A stretch of DNA of 64,000 bases from NCBI GenBank assembly GCA_947475525.1, contig CANJMI010000007.1, forward strand, positions 1 through 64,000, read 5' to 3'. Below, in pieces: positions 31,216-36,787 of this stretch (positions are counted from its first letter, which is position 1; every line of letters starts with the position of its first letter). The DNA comes from Polyangiaceae bacterium (GTDB taxonomy: Bacteria; Myxococcota_A; Polyangia; Polyangiales; Polyangiaceae). Both the position numbers and the translations under genes were made by a program. A model generated the notes under the pieces. That model was not told where the DNA came from and made no database searches. It was given only the letters and a program-made list of their open reading frames with translations.

Positions 31216-32856
31216 TCAATAGAAGCTCGTGCCAACCGGATCGGGCGTGCGGTAGGGCTTCAAGGGTCCCTTGACCGGCGCGCTCGTCGACGACGGCGTG
31301 CCGGTCGGTGCACTCGAACCCGACGCGCCCGGCTCGGGCAACGAGCCGTTTACCGGTGAATCGACCGAGTTCGCCTCGGCTACCGGAAGCGCGGCGACCG
31401 GATCGACGGGCTCGCCGGCCGCACGTTCCCCCGTCGCCGAGCCTCTGGATGACGTCAGCGGGCTCACGGGGGCGGCGCCCCACAACGCAAGAAAAAGCAC
31501 ACCTGCGATCGCGACCGCGGCGATCGCGACGGCGGCGAGCAACAGCTGCCTTAACATCGGTGCAGGACCGGACGCTTCGGGACCGCCTGCCCCCGCAAGA
31601 TCGCCCTGCGATGACACGGGCGCGGTCACGCTAAAATTGACGCCAGACGGCGGAGTCGGTGCCGCGCCCGGGATGCCTAACGCGAAGGCTGCGCCGCTTA
31701 TCCGTGGCAGCGACGGCATGCTCGGTTGGCTCGTGTGGCCAGGAAACGACGGGGCCGACGGCGCTGGAGTGGCCTGCCTCGGGTGCGCAGGCGACCCGCC
31801 CGACGACGTCGCGGCAGGCGGGGCGACGGACGACGCATCGGGCAGCTCCGCTGACACGGAAGCGGCAGACGTGACGGCATTTGCTTCACCGAGTGCTCCA
31901 CCGAGGTGGGCCTCACTCTCGCTCGCGGCGTCGGCGGTCTTGCGTTGACGCCGCTGCGTTGGCGCACCAACACCGAGGGCCTCGGCGAGGGCCTCGATCA
32001 TCTCGGATGCACTGCGAAAACGCTGCTTCGGCGAGAGCGCCGTCGCTCGTGCAAACCACGGGTCGAATCCCGAAGGCAACGCTCTGGCGGCACGCGCTGC
32101 GCGCACCGACGCAAGCTCACTCGCGCCCTTCAACACCTTGAGGAGCAACGGATAGATGGGGCCTCCCTGCCATTCATCCGACCAATACGATCGCCCGACG
32201 AGCAGCGAATACGCGATGTGACCGAGCGAATACAGGTCGCAGCCCTGTTCGATGGGATCGCCGCTGATTTGCTCGGGCGCCATGTAGAGCGGCGTCCCGA
32301 CCGTCGCGGTCTGCTGGCCCCCCGACGGGTTGTGGGCCATCACCTTCGCGATCCCGAAGTCGAGAATCTTCAACCGCGGCGTGCCGTCGTCTCGCACGGT
32401 ATAGAACAAGTTCTCAGGTTTCAGATCGCGATGGACGATCCCGAGGGCGTGGGTCTTGTCGAGCGCGAGCGCCGCCTGCCAAAGAAGGTGAACCACATCT
32501 TCGGCGGAGAACGCCCCTTGACGCTTCAAGACCGCGGAGAGGTCATCGCCACGAAGGAGTTCCATCACGAGGAACGGGGCTCCGGTACCGACGTCGATCC
32601 CCGCGTCGAAAACATCGACAATGTGCTCGCTCTCGACCGATGCCGCGACCGTCGCCTCGAGTTTGAAGCGCGCTCGCAGCCCGACATCGGTGACCAGACT
32701 CGGCAGCATCACCTTGAGCGCGACGCGACGTCCCGTCTCGCCGTGAACGGCTTCGTACACGCCCCCCATCCCTCCGGTTCGAATGCACCGCACGATGCGG
32801 TAGCGCTCACCGAAGACGGCGCCGGTATCGAGTGTGGCTTGGGGGTCGTAGGTCAT
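31216..32856 (-). CDS. Ser/Thr protein kinase, transmembrane
   Basis: 546 residues. The kinase domain spans about 18-285: TGGMGGVYEAVH, VALKVM, HRDLKPENLF, DFGIAK and APEQ are all canonical. A long Ala/Pro/Ser linker is followed by one transmembrane helix (LRQLLLAAVAIAAVAIAGVLFLALW, about 440-464) and a disordered extracytoplasmic tail. It starts the module kinase - TPR-like protein - lipoprotein. The start lies only about 135 bases from the terminator of the large RNA upstream, so the kinase promoter must fall in 32857-32992. Confidence 0.95.
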   Translation of the reverse strand: MTYDPQATLDTGAVFGERYRIVRCIRTGGMGGVYEAVHGETGRRVALKVMLPSLVTDVGLRARFKLEATVAASVESEHIVDVFDAGIDVGTGAPFLVMELLRGDDLSAVLKRQGAFSAEDVVHLLWQAALALDKTHALGIVHRDLKPENLFYTVRDDGTPRLKILDFGIAKVMAHNPSGGQQTATVGTPLYMAPEQISGDPIEQGCDLYSLGHIAYSLLVGRSYWSDEWQGGPIYPLLLKVLKGASELASVRAARAARALPSGFDPWFARATALSPKQRFRSASEMIEALAEALGVGAPTQRRQRKTADAASESEAHLGGALGEANAVTSAASVSAELPDASSVAPPAATSSGGSPAHPRQATPAPSAPSFPGHTSQPSMPSLPRISGAAFALGIPGAAPTPPSGVNFSVTAPVSSQGDLAGAGGPEASGPAPMLRQLLLAAVAIAAVAIAGVLFLALWGAAPVSPLTSSRGSATGERAAGEPVDPVAALPVAEANSVDSPVNGSLPEPGASGSSAPTGTPSSTSAPVKGPLKPYRTPDPVGTSFY

Positions 32857-32992
32857 CGTCGCCCGCGCACCGAAGACGCAGATGCACAGCTGTCATGCTA
32901 CCTCGCTCGGCACGAAAAGAAAGCATTCGAGGGTCGGCACAGGCCCTCCGCATCCGTCTGCCGCGGCGCTGTGCCACGAGAAACGCCACGAC

Positions 32993-33031
32993 AAAAAAGC
33001 GAGAGGGCCATCTCTTGGGGAGATAGCCCTC
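32993..33031 (-). terminator. Intrinsic terminator of the large RNA
   Basis: Read on the minus strand: GAGGGCTATCTC, loop CCCAA, GAGATGGCCCTC, then TCGC and six T. The stem arms are 33020-33031 and 33003-33014, and the T run is 32998-32993. The stem is about 11 pairs, GC-rich at its base, with one mismatch. It is one of the clearest terminators in the window, and no protein gene lies upstream of it on this strand until beyond 35588, which implies a long transcript that needs ending here. Confidence 0.88.
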
Positions 33032-35335
33032 ATCGCGGAGTCCACGTGTTGCGCGCCCACGGTGCCGGTCACCGTGACTTGCGGCATATTCTGCCGCCGC
33101 GCGCCCTCCGACTTGCGCTTGCGGCGCCGCCGGACATCACCATCTGGTCTGAGTTTCCACGGATCGTTCGGCGTTTCGCGTCGCCTTATTTCACGATCCC
33201 GGATGTCACGCCTTTTCGCCGCGACAGCGGTCCCGCATTCGGCCCTCGTCGTCCTGAGCTTTTCTTTTGCTCACTCCCGAACCACATCAGGTGCTACCTG
33301 ATGCCTGTCCTCGATGGGAGCTTGGACCACCGACCCTCTGCGTCTTTCGACTGGGAGAGCCAAGGTACCGCCACGAGATCCGGCGCCCTCTGTCACTCGT
33401 CGGTGCGGCGATGGAGTTTCCACTTCCACCACCACCGGCCCTCTGCTCCGCACCAACCTCTCGGCCAGTACCGGCGAGCATCACGCCGTGTTCCGTCAAG
33501 CCTAGGAAGCCTTCGTCACACGCGGTTTAAGCGTGCGGCGAACACATTCCAGGACACCTTCGACTGACTTCGACCCCTGCACCAATCTTGCGATTCATGC
33601 CGGTAGCCGCTGCATTGCGCTCGAATCAATTGTTCGTTCGCAGCACGTCGACTTCACCCTTTCACCCATCCAAGCTGTCCGCTCCGTCACGAGTTTACCG
33701 GACCGCCTGGCAGGGCTGACTCGCTCCCCTTTCGGCGTGGCCCCGGAGCCATTTCTGGTTCCGACCACGACGACCGAGTTACGAGAAGATGACTCTCGCC
33801 AGTCTCAACAACTCATTCCATTTTCAACTGGGCACCCTGCGAATCCTTCAACTCCCGAGCGACGAGCTCTCGCCCGCCTTTCCGCCTCGACCCGCGCATT
33901 CCACGATTCCGCACTCTCGTACGGGTCGCGAAACGCAACGCTTCGCTGCAGCGCCAATCCACGGAACGCTTACGCGATCGGCGAATGTGGCCTCGAGTCG
34001 TGGGACGGTTGGCGCCGCCACCACGAGCTGTGGTCATCCTCCCGATGCACTCGAACGGCACTTTCGCACCGCCGTGCTCGTCCCCCCTTTTTAGGCGAAC
34101 GACGTCCGAACCGAGTTTTTCGCTCGTGAACGAACGGACCGAGACGACCCACTGACACTCTCTGTCACGCCGCGTGACCGTCGCCCAAAGGCTCCGAATC
34201 ATCCGCGACGCCCGGATACGCGCGCCATTCCGCTCGCGTACCGCAAAGCCCGAGTTTCCCCGAACCTCGAAGGTCCCCTTCAGCTGGCCGCGCACCACCG
34301 CGACCCCTTCCAGAAACCAGAGCGCCTTCCACCGATGAGTCCCACCACGCCGACCGTTCGTCGGAGCCTTGCTCTCGCAAGTCCAAGCGCCCGGTATTCC
34401 CAGACGCGCGCCCCGCACCTCGGGTTCACCGAGTTACGAAGAGGCAGACCACCACCACGACCAAAGCTTTGCCGCCTTGGCCGGGCTTCCGACACGCGTT
34501 CACCCGCCGGCTTTCACCTTCGAGCTAGACCCTCGCGACAGACCGGCTCATCACCGGTGCCCGAACGCCACATGCCGCTCATCGACTACTGCAATCAAAC
34601 GGATCCACGAGCACACCTCGTGACTCCTCCGAACCCGACCGACGTGACCTCTCGGCTCGCCCGTCATCGGCCACCCGATCCCTTGCGGAATCTAGCGGAC
34701 CGAGGCACCTCAACCCAGGGGTCTACCAGTGATTTCACTACCGGTTCGACGCCCGCAAACAGCGACCGCTCGCTCTGCGGATTGACCCCGACTCGAAGCG
34801 TACTCGAGCACCCTCATGTCGCGTGGCTGGCTCCGATTCCGACTGGAACAGTCGATACCGGCGATCTGCGGTACGGATCCCCCGCTTTTGCGGGGCCCAA
34901 CTCGCCCAGGCACGTCAGGTTTTCGCCCGACGCCACGACAATGCCGTGTTTGCCTTTAGGGACACCTCACGAAGCTCCGCGCGAACGGAACAGCGCTCAG
35001 CAATACCCAGGGTGCTTTCCACCTAACCAACCTCGAATCCACAGCGCGCGAGGCGCGTTTCGTCGAGGGGCGCCGGCTTCCGTCTCAAGTTTCCTCGAGC
35101 GCGGGGCCGAACTCTCACAACACCTTTTTTACCGTAGCCTTCCCTGTCCTGACTTGGACCGGGGGGCCGGGGCTCGAACACACCTTCGTGGGAGGCGATC
35201 GCCCGGCGGAGTGAATCCGCTCGTGCGTCCCCTCGGACCAGGTGGTTCGCAGTGCCTGGAAGGCTTCTGCGTTCGGAAGCGCCGGAGGCTGATGTGCCGC
35301 GGAACTTCCAAAACGGAATGTCTCACTTGGCGTCG
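32993..35335 (-). ncRNA. Candidate giant structured non-coding RNA (~2.3 kb), family unknown
   Basis: No frame here has a protein-like sequence, although long open shadows exist. The + strand is strongly C-over-G (26 C to 14 G in 34501-34560; 30 to 11 in 33421-33480), so a minus transcript is purine-rich, as structured RNAs often are. It runs from a promoter-like site (35342-35370) to a strong terminator (32993-33031). Read on the minus strand, hairpins are dense, for example 33285-33303 (8 bp), 33058-33076 (7 bp), 34461-34480 (7 bp) and a nested pair at 34753-34780. GNRA loops close stems at 35084-35099, 34368-34381, 34251-34262, 33967-33976, 33909-33924, 33745-33762, 33453-33468 and 33342-33351. 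It matches no 16S or 23S landmark I know. A decayed gene is the main alternative. Confidence 0.65.
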
Positions 35336-35370: not shown

Positions 35371-35385
35371 TTTATCGTCCACGGG

Positions 35386-35394
35386 TTATCCACA
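35386..35394 (+). promoter_or_regulatory. Consensus DnaA box (isolated)
   Basis: TTATCCACA is a perfect match to the DnaA-box consensus. It lies just upstream of the proposed RNA promoter and about 190 bases from rlmN. I find no cluster of further perfect boxes nearby, only a loose TTTATCGTCCACG at 35371-35383, so this is not an origin. It could be a chance occurrence or a DnaA-responsive regulatory site. Confidence 0.4.
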
Positions 35395-35587: not shown

Positions 35588-36787
35588 GTGCCGAGTGCTG
35601 CCCTCACGCGCCCCGAATCCGGAGCCACTGCGCTCGGCGACTTCGATCGGAGTAGCCTCGCCGATCATCTGGTCGAGGCGACCGGAACGCGCCTCGCGAC
35701 GTGTGAACGGACGGCAGCAAAAGCGCTGCGCTTGGCCTTCCGCGCGGATGGGGGGCTCGCGTGGACCGACGAGACGCTGACCGCCGCTGGCATCGGGAGC
35801 TGGGCCCGAGCGAGCTTGCTGGCGCTGAGCCCGGCGCCGCGCCTCGAGCTTGCTACCAAATCGCCTTCCGCCGACGGAACCATTCGCCTTCTCTTCCGCA
35901 CAGTCGATGGCGCGCTCGTCGAATCGGTGATCATCCCGGCGGCGGACGGGCGCACGACGGCGCGCACCACCCTTTGCATTTCAAGCCAAGTCGGGTGTGC
36001 ACGCGCATGCACCTTCTGTGAGACAGGCCGCCACGGCTACTCGCGGCAGCTCCGTGCGGGAGAGATCGTCGACCAAGTGCGGCTCGCCCGGCGCGTGTGC
36101 GAGAGCGATGCGCCTATCGATTTGCGGGGCGTCTGCCGCCCCACGAGCGGGGCCCGCGCGCACGACGAGAACGAGCCGGAGCGTCCAATTACCAACATCG
36201 TGTTCATGGGGATGGGCGAACCCTTCGACAACCTCAGCGAAGTGCTGCGTGCCGTGTCGCTGCTTTCGGATGATGTGGCTTTTGCCTACCCGGCGTCGCG
36301 CATCACGGTGAGCACCGTAGGCGTGGCCGATAAATTCGAGACGTTCTTCGCGAACACGAAGGCCGAGCTCGCGATAAGCCTCCACGCTCCGGACGACGCT
36401 CGGCGGAGCGCGATCATGCCGATCAACAAGCGCTTCGATTTGGCGACGCTGCGCGATGCGCTCCTCAAGGCGAAGCCCGCGAACCGCCGGGTGATGTTCC
36501 AATACGTGCTGTTCGCGGACTTCAACGATTCGGAGGACGACGCCGACGCGCTCGCGGCCTACGTCGCGCCCGTGCGCTGCCGCGTCAACGTGATCCCGGC
36601 AAATCCCGGGCCCGATCCTCGCCTCGTCTCACCGTCGGCCGAGCGAATCGACGCGTTCGTCGCACGCCTCAATGGCCATGGGGTCACCACCCTGGTGCGG
36701 CGTCCGCGCGGCCGAGACGTTGGCGGCGCCTGCGGTCAACTCGCTGGGGCACGCAGGCTCGAGCTCGCGCCAGTGGGTCCCGAATGA
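35588..36787 (+). CDS. rlmN: RlmN-family radical-SAM rRNA/tRNA adenine C2-methyltransferase
   Basis: 399 residues, GTG start. RlmN methylates A2503 of 23S rRNA and A37 of some tRNAs. The radical-SAM motif is CARACTFC in SQVGCARACTFCETGRHGY (about 132-150). Other family signatures are NIVFMGMGEPFDNL, ELAISLHAPDDARRSAIMPINK, and near the end RPRGRDVGGACGQLAG, which holds the second catalytic Cys. An insert of about 25 residues (RGVCRPTSGARAHDENEPE) precedes the MGMGEP motif. The N-terminal domain is divergent, so a specialised paralogue is possible. It is divergent to the large RNA and overlaps the next gene (ATGA). Confidence 0.88.
   Translation: MPSAALTRPESGATALGDFDRSSLADHLVEATGTRLATCERTAAKALRLAFRADGGLAWTDETLTAAGIGSWARASLLALSPAPRLELATKSPSADGTIRLLFRTVDGALVESVIIPAADGRTTARTTLCISSQVGCARACTFCETGRHGYSRQLRAGEIVDQVRLARRVCESDAPIDLRGVCRPTSGARAHDENEPERPITNIVFMGMGEPFDNLSEVLRAVSLLSDDVAFAYPASRITVSTVGVADKFETFFANTKAELAISLHAPDDARRSAIMPINKRFDLATLRDALLKAKPANRRVMFQYVLFADFNDSEDDADALAAYVAPVRCRVNVIPANPGPDPRLVSPSAERIDAFVARLNGHGVTTLVRRPRGRDVGGACGQLAGARRLELAPVGPE

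Follow-up and report, generated by a model that had tools for sequence, protein, structure and literature searches.

What occupies the roughly 2.3 kb that separate a Ser/Thr-kinase gene from rlmN in this myxobacterial genome? The window that we analysed is a 64-kb stretch of DNA, and the original prediction, made from its letters alone, placed a purine-rich, structured, non-coding minus-strand transcript at 32993-35335. The locus and the strand were right, but the 5' limit was not, since 35335 falls inside the promoter; we refined the RNA gene to 35309-32989. It is a free-standing gene. On the plus strand, C exceeds G as predicted, with a GC skew of -0.16 to -0.27 in most intervals from 33000 to 34999 and mostly -0.1 to +0.1 outside. 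The minus-strand RNA is indeed purine rich (56.5%; homologues, 52-58%). The window contains no tRNA. A second BLAST match within the same genome (C2:175400) was discarded as a chance match in apparently coding sequence. Table 1 gives the coordinates of the gene and its parts.

Table 1. Features of the giant RNA locus, in window positions; nucleotide (nt) p of the RNA corresponds to window position 35310 - p.
Feature	Window position	Strand	RNA position or distance from 5' end	Remarks
rlmN	35588-36787	plus		Radical SAM; name assigned from sequence
Exact TGTGGATAA box	35386..35394	minus	-85	Reverse complement of DnaA-box sequence TTATCCACA
Second, degenerate box, CGTGGACGA	35375..35383	minus	-74	TGTGGATAA at this place in many homologues
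-35-like element, TTGCAA	35340..35345	minus	-36..-31 from conserved 5' end	TTG(C/A) at ~-36 in most homologues
-10-like element, GACATT	35317..35322	minus	-13..-8	17 nt past the -35 element; several other genera have GCATAA
Giant structured RNA gene	32989..35309	minus		~2.3 kb; based on 31 aligned homologues with common 5' end, core and terminator, and on covariation
P1, 5' strand (end-closing stem), GGAAGUUC	35302..35309	minus		In-register pairing with bases preceding the terminator in many homologues
End-to-end contact	35290..35294 with 33139-33135	minus	16-20 with 2171-2175	5' side is the 5' hairpin loop, CAUCA
Domain 1	34807..35264	minus	46-503	P2 46-50/285-289, P3 294-301/496-503, inner helices; covariation
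Domain 2	33833..34613	minus	697-1477	Closing helix 697-709/1464-1477; covariation, folding
Domain 2, inner helices			P5 724-732/971-979; P6 984-991/1149-1156	Also P7
Loop-loop contact in domain 2	34292..34297 with 34015-34010	minus	1013-1018 with 1295-1300
Domain 3	33149..33816	minus	1494-2161	Closing helix 1494-1499/2156-2161, P9-P16; covariation
P1, 3' strand, GGACUCC	33037..33043	minus		GACUUCC or GCGAGCUUCC in other genera
Intrinsic terminator	33003..33031	minus		12-pair GC-rich hairpin, then T run
Kinase gene	31216-32856	minus		Pkinase domain

The idea of an RNA class depended on conservation, and conservation was found. Many genera of the same family (f1), and two further families of the order (f62 and f2), have homologues that share its 5' end, core, and terminator. 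We extracted and aligned 31 RNAs from these families, with identity down to ~43% (~43-97% among the first 12); they measure 1.09 kb in f2 and 1.7-2.45 kb elsewhere. BLASTN against 60 genomes of the same family detected a full-length homologue at 82% in G051 (MAG Polyangiaceae bacterium ZH-3nov15-113, contig CANMZR010000124.1), a homologue at 64% in G005, and, in four further genera, islands of similarity in collinear order. R1, a covariance model built on a 125-nt core with double-sided change in 13 of 35 pairs, matched 11 genomes within the family, one of them with two copies, and none outside it. R1 missed diverged members, which R2 and R3, models built from wider alignments, recovered: further genera of the family, one f62 genome, and one f2 genus. 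The 5' element was confirmed by pattern in g5, g13, and g21 and by sequence inspection in G046, G006, G452, and f2. Additional R3 matches carry the 5' element (G081) or the terminator (G037, G099, G071, and G026). We judged R2/R3 matches in G083, G379, G486, G327, G107, and G004 to be false, as they were kinase-like or other coding sequence or lacked the landmarks of the RNA. R3 matches in other orders stayed at noise level (best, 7.5e-6), and Sorangium and Polyangium records likewise gave only noise. These calls of absence are limited by the models, which score only a few candidates in each genome, and by the genomes, most of which are draft assemblies. No match was found in 50,697 phage records or in plasmid records; viral contigs with the 5' motif were chance matches that lacked the core.

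Several individual forms deserve mention. The compact 1.1-kb form of family f2 (loci L172-L177, genus g49; for example, L172:7655-8749) retains the core, P6 of domain 2, and the terminator and lacks most of the 5' domain; as a minimal version made by nature, it lends itself to structural work. One genome, G073, has two divergent copies that are 69% identical (L113 and L114), one adjoining rlmN and the other near an SbcD-like gene. In another, a second, weaker core match (G078:C143:50207-50385) lies ~0.6 kb past the first; part of the RNA may be duplicated there, or the match may be due to chance.

Does the block evolve as a folded RNA? Since a covariation test over all pairs had too little power with 12 sequences, we used a helix-level covariation score and compared it, with 12 and then with 31 sequences, to alignments simulated on the tree with the observed substitutions redistributed. 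These nulls are our own simulation, not R-scape. With 31 sequences, about 26 non-overlapping helices scored above all nulls, the top one reaching 7.67 against a null maximum of 2.31 over six simulations. Helices that close domains of ~780 and ~670 nt are among them. In a model of 192 pairs, 85.3% of the cells pair, versus 39-44% after sliding of the 3' side, and 155 pairs show double-sided change. The model holds 719 G-U cells versus 136 A-C cells, an excess that is to be expected only with the minus strand as the RNA strand. A separate count on P6/P6a gave 96.4% paired versus 35-52% slid, with a covariation score that none of 500 shuffles reached. Domain 2, folded alone, had a z of -4.95 against 20 dinucleotide shuffles. 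Poorly supported parts of the model are P6b (55% paired) and the terminator columns (58%), both of which are poorly aligned. The predicted hairpin-rich, structured RNA is thus borne out by covariation in its stems, measured against phylogeny-preserving nulls, by long-range closure, and by the G-U strand bias.

The aligned RNAs start with GGAAG or AUGAAG, followed by a C/G-rich hairpin and, except in f2 and a few genomes, by a CGCAGAAG/CGUAGAAGCC-type element. The ends would be closed by P1, whose pairings among homologues include GGAAGUU/GACUUCC, GGAAGCUCGC/GCGAGCUUCC, and UGAAGUU/GACUUCA. The case for P1 rests on register and compensatory changes; its length alone is significant in few sequences, and it is weak and bulged in the source genome's own lineage. 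The most conserved core is in domain 2 (GUGUGCUCG..UUGCAGAAGUCGAUGAG and GGGUCUAGC), and P14 of domain 3 is a GAAA-capped hairpin. The loop-loop contact in domain 2 is paired in 93% of cells, with double change in 5 of 6 pairs, and the end-to-end contact is paired in 92%, with double change in 5 of 5. A conserved palindromic CUAG lies within GGGUCUAGC (window 34522-34532, nt ~778-788). By analogy with the palindromic loops of OLE and GOLLD it could be a homodimer contact.

What might such a fold do? We infer that the RNA may be the scaffold of a large particle acting in trans, either RNA-only, like ROOL and GOLLD, or with proteins, like OLE, and that it would not be a message, a leader, or an antisense RNA. 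The scaffold mechanism is a tentative proposal, somewhat more doubtful than not. In favour of an active role, as a large catalytic RNA or RNA machine, strongly conserved single-stranded stretches are concentrated at the junctions of domains 2 and 3 (UUGCAGAAGUCG, GGGUCUAGC, GGUGUCCUGG, and a GAAA-capped hairpin with an internal loop), and there are loop-loop contacts, as in catalytic RNAs. However, ornate RNAs without catalytic activity have the same features, nothing points to a substrate or a reaction, and the Rfam searches of the window and of 8 homologue loci showed no resemblance to RNase P RNA or introns. We consider a ribozyme unlikely.

The block was said to be bounded by a promoter-like site and a strong terminator. 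A strict sigma-70 scan of the window found no promoter, but comparison of homologues did reveal a conserved one: its elements lie at a constant distance upstream of the 5' end, with the -10-like hexamer at ~-12, and in most homologues a T-rich tract precedes the -35-like element. The terminator is present at 33031-33003 of the minus strand, and homologues end with the same type, a GC-rich hairpin plus a U-run. Farther upstream, TGTGGA-type boxes are found in most homologues, near -73/-75, near -84/-87, or at both places. In the whole 5.15-Mb assembly there are just two exact copies of TGTGGATAA, the promoter copy and one within an open coding frame. The dnaA region that we scanned is also without an exact copy. 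We infer that transcription would start from the conserved sigma-70-like promoter and might be controlled through the tandem TGTGGATAA boxes, by DnaA or by a factor with the same site. Since dnaA is not near the boxes (it is on a different contig here and ~715 kb away in G055) and the locus shows no skew switch, we rejected a replication origin and, despite the match to the DnaA 9-mer, leave the binding factor open.

Genomic context bears on whether the RNA acts in cis or in trans. The RNA gene is divergent from rlmN in g1, g24, g41, and g45. Elsewhere it occupies other loci, near EVE, MscS-type, and FadL-like porin genes in g13 and at different sites in g5 and f2. The downstream gene differs by lineage, being the kinase gene, an IF-2B-family gene read as mtnA, a lipA-like gene, or a FadL-like porin gene. 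In the lineages compared, we found no constant neighbouring protein gene that would be a candidate RNP partner. Three g13 genomes (L159-L161) have EVE-domain and MscS-type genes immediately upstream of the RNA, and a similar EVE-domain-like frame is near the RNA in G021 and G006.

A location between genes and upstream boxes that match the DnaA 9-mer are what one would expect of a cis element, whether a leader or riboswitch of great length for the downstream gene or a site that acts as DNA, for instance in replication origin function or DnaA titration. Yet the RNA has its own terminator ahead of the next gene, the downstream genes vary among lineages, the G-U bias and covariation are specific to the RNA strand, there is no skew switch, and dnaA is elsewhere. 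The criteria for a riboswitch or mRNA leader are unmet, as the downstream gene is not constant and homologues have the terminator at the 3' end. A cis element is largely refuted by these observations, and we give it very little weight. An own terminator combined with varying downstream genes suggests a trans-acting RNA and not a leader; as far as sequence can tell, this argues for action in trans.

Could the RNA belong, in divergent form, to one of the large classes already known, such as OLE, GOLLD, ROOL, HEARO, group II introns, RNase P RNA, or tmRNA? It shares their broad style, being large, purine rich, multi-domain, and usually single copy. Searched with Rfam 15 covariance models, however, neither the window nor any of 8 homologue loci gave a match at the gathering score; within the block there were only chance-level matches (E ~3-9), so that the Rfam search that had been proposed as a check returned no known family. 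RNase P RNA scored over the cut-off in 6 of 6 genomes tested, at loci other than that of the giant RNA, and tmRNA did so in 5 of 6, including the source genome (G051 had it only below the cut-off). The giant RNA is therefore no stand-in for either. With no phage or plasmid match as well, membership in a known class is highly improbable. The lack of an Rfam match, of a phage context, and of a constant partner gene indicates a new RNA class.

The original prediction held that no frame in the block encodes a protein and named a decayed gene or old insertion as its main alternative. The block shares ~81% identity with its G051 homologue, and the mismatches are spread evenly over codon phases (144/146/140), that is, without the protein-like pattern of codon substitution that would have refuted the idea; of its six gaps, each 1-2 nt, none is a multiple of three. 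The control genes behave differently: rlmN is 74% identical, with phase counts of 61/42/209, and the kinase gene is 67% identical, with 145/120/279. At the DNA level the block is thus better conserved than both of its adjacent genes. Open frames of up to 337 amino acids exist in the block on both strands, and the long ones keep neither strand nor position from one homologue to another. The flat codon phase and lack of triplet indels show that the block is neither a gene nor a decayed gene. In favour of a protein gene in decay, a pseudogene, or an old insertion there are only these long chance frames, and all three are practically ruled out by conservation over many genera, by the codon phase and indels, and by compensatory changes in helices: the block evolves as RNA.

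Taken together, comparison of homologues supports a unit that codes for no protein, is bounded by a promoter-like region (also conserved) and an intrinsic terminator, and yields an RNA form with three multi-helix domains, end contacts, and a domain-2 core. We are highly confident that this large structured non-coding minus-strand RNA class is real, with the reservation that we have no expression data; the original interpretation is supported, and transcription has not been observed. The explanation that best fits the whole, and that we regard as probable, is that the block is a gene of its own whose product is a stable structural RNA of ~2.3 kb that acts in trans, its scaffold function being inferred. 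A bolder possibility, which we regard as speculative, is an ancient RNA machine on the scale of rRNA, catalytic or an RNA-only particle, whose synthesis would be tied to the replication cycle by the tandem DnaA-type promoter boxes.

In the literature cited here, known structured bacterial RNAs that are neither ribosomal nor introns measure ~0.6-0.8 kb or a little above that. The existence of a family of chromosomal RNAs of up to ~2.4 kb, with closure of several domains in the manner of rRNA, implies that a very large RNA serves the cell in some unknown function. The family spans much of one myxobacterial family and is traceable to two others. The 1.1-kb version and the covariation model make the class directly testable, and the finding suggests that long intergenic blocks of large bacterial genomes merit re-examination. 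Searches of the open-licence literature did not turn up any such RNA.

OLE is 610 nt and GOLLD ~800 nt (PMC5643018), although many GOLLD members exceed 800 nt (PMC12286853); one example of ROOL, which forms an RNA-only octamer, is 659 nt (PMC12286853). Against these sizes, the claim that the block is larger than the recognised ornate bacterial RNAs stands. Like RNase P RNA and tmRNA, the giant RNA appears to be trans-acting and structured, with long-range closure of its fold; unlike a substitute for them, it coexists with canonical copies of both elsewhere in the source genome. Like OLE, it is a chromosomal large structured RNA. OLE, however, has a neighbouring gene for a membrane-protein partner, whereas the neighbours of the giant RNA vary by lineage; it has no Rfam match to OLE and is ~4 times as long. 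GOLLD is similarly very large, highly structured, and non-coding, with intricate tertiary contacts and unknown function, but it resides in phages and prophages near tRNA islands. The giant RNA is chromosomal, has no match in the phage collection, shows no sequence or Rfam match to GOLLD, and is more than twice as long. It differs from ROOL in having no Rfam match, in not being phage-borne, and in being ~3.5 times as long; ROOL is also a large stand-alone structured RNA, and the giant RNA is, like it, a candidate RNA-only particle. The broad kind, a large structured RNA of unknown function, is already known; the RNA class itself is new.
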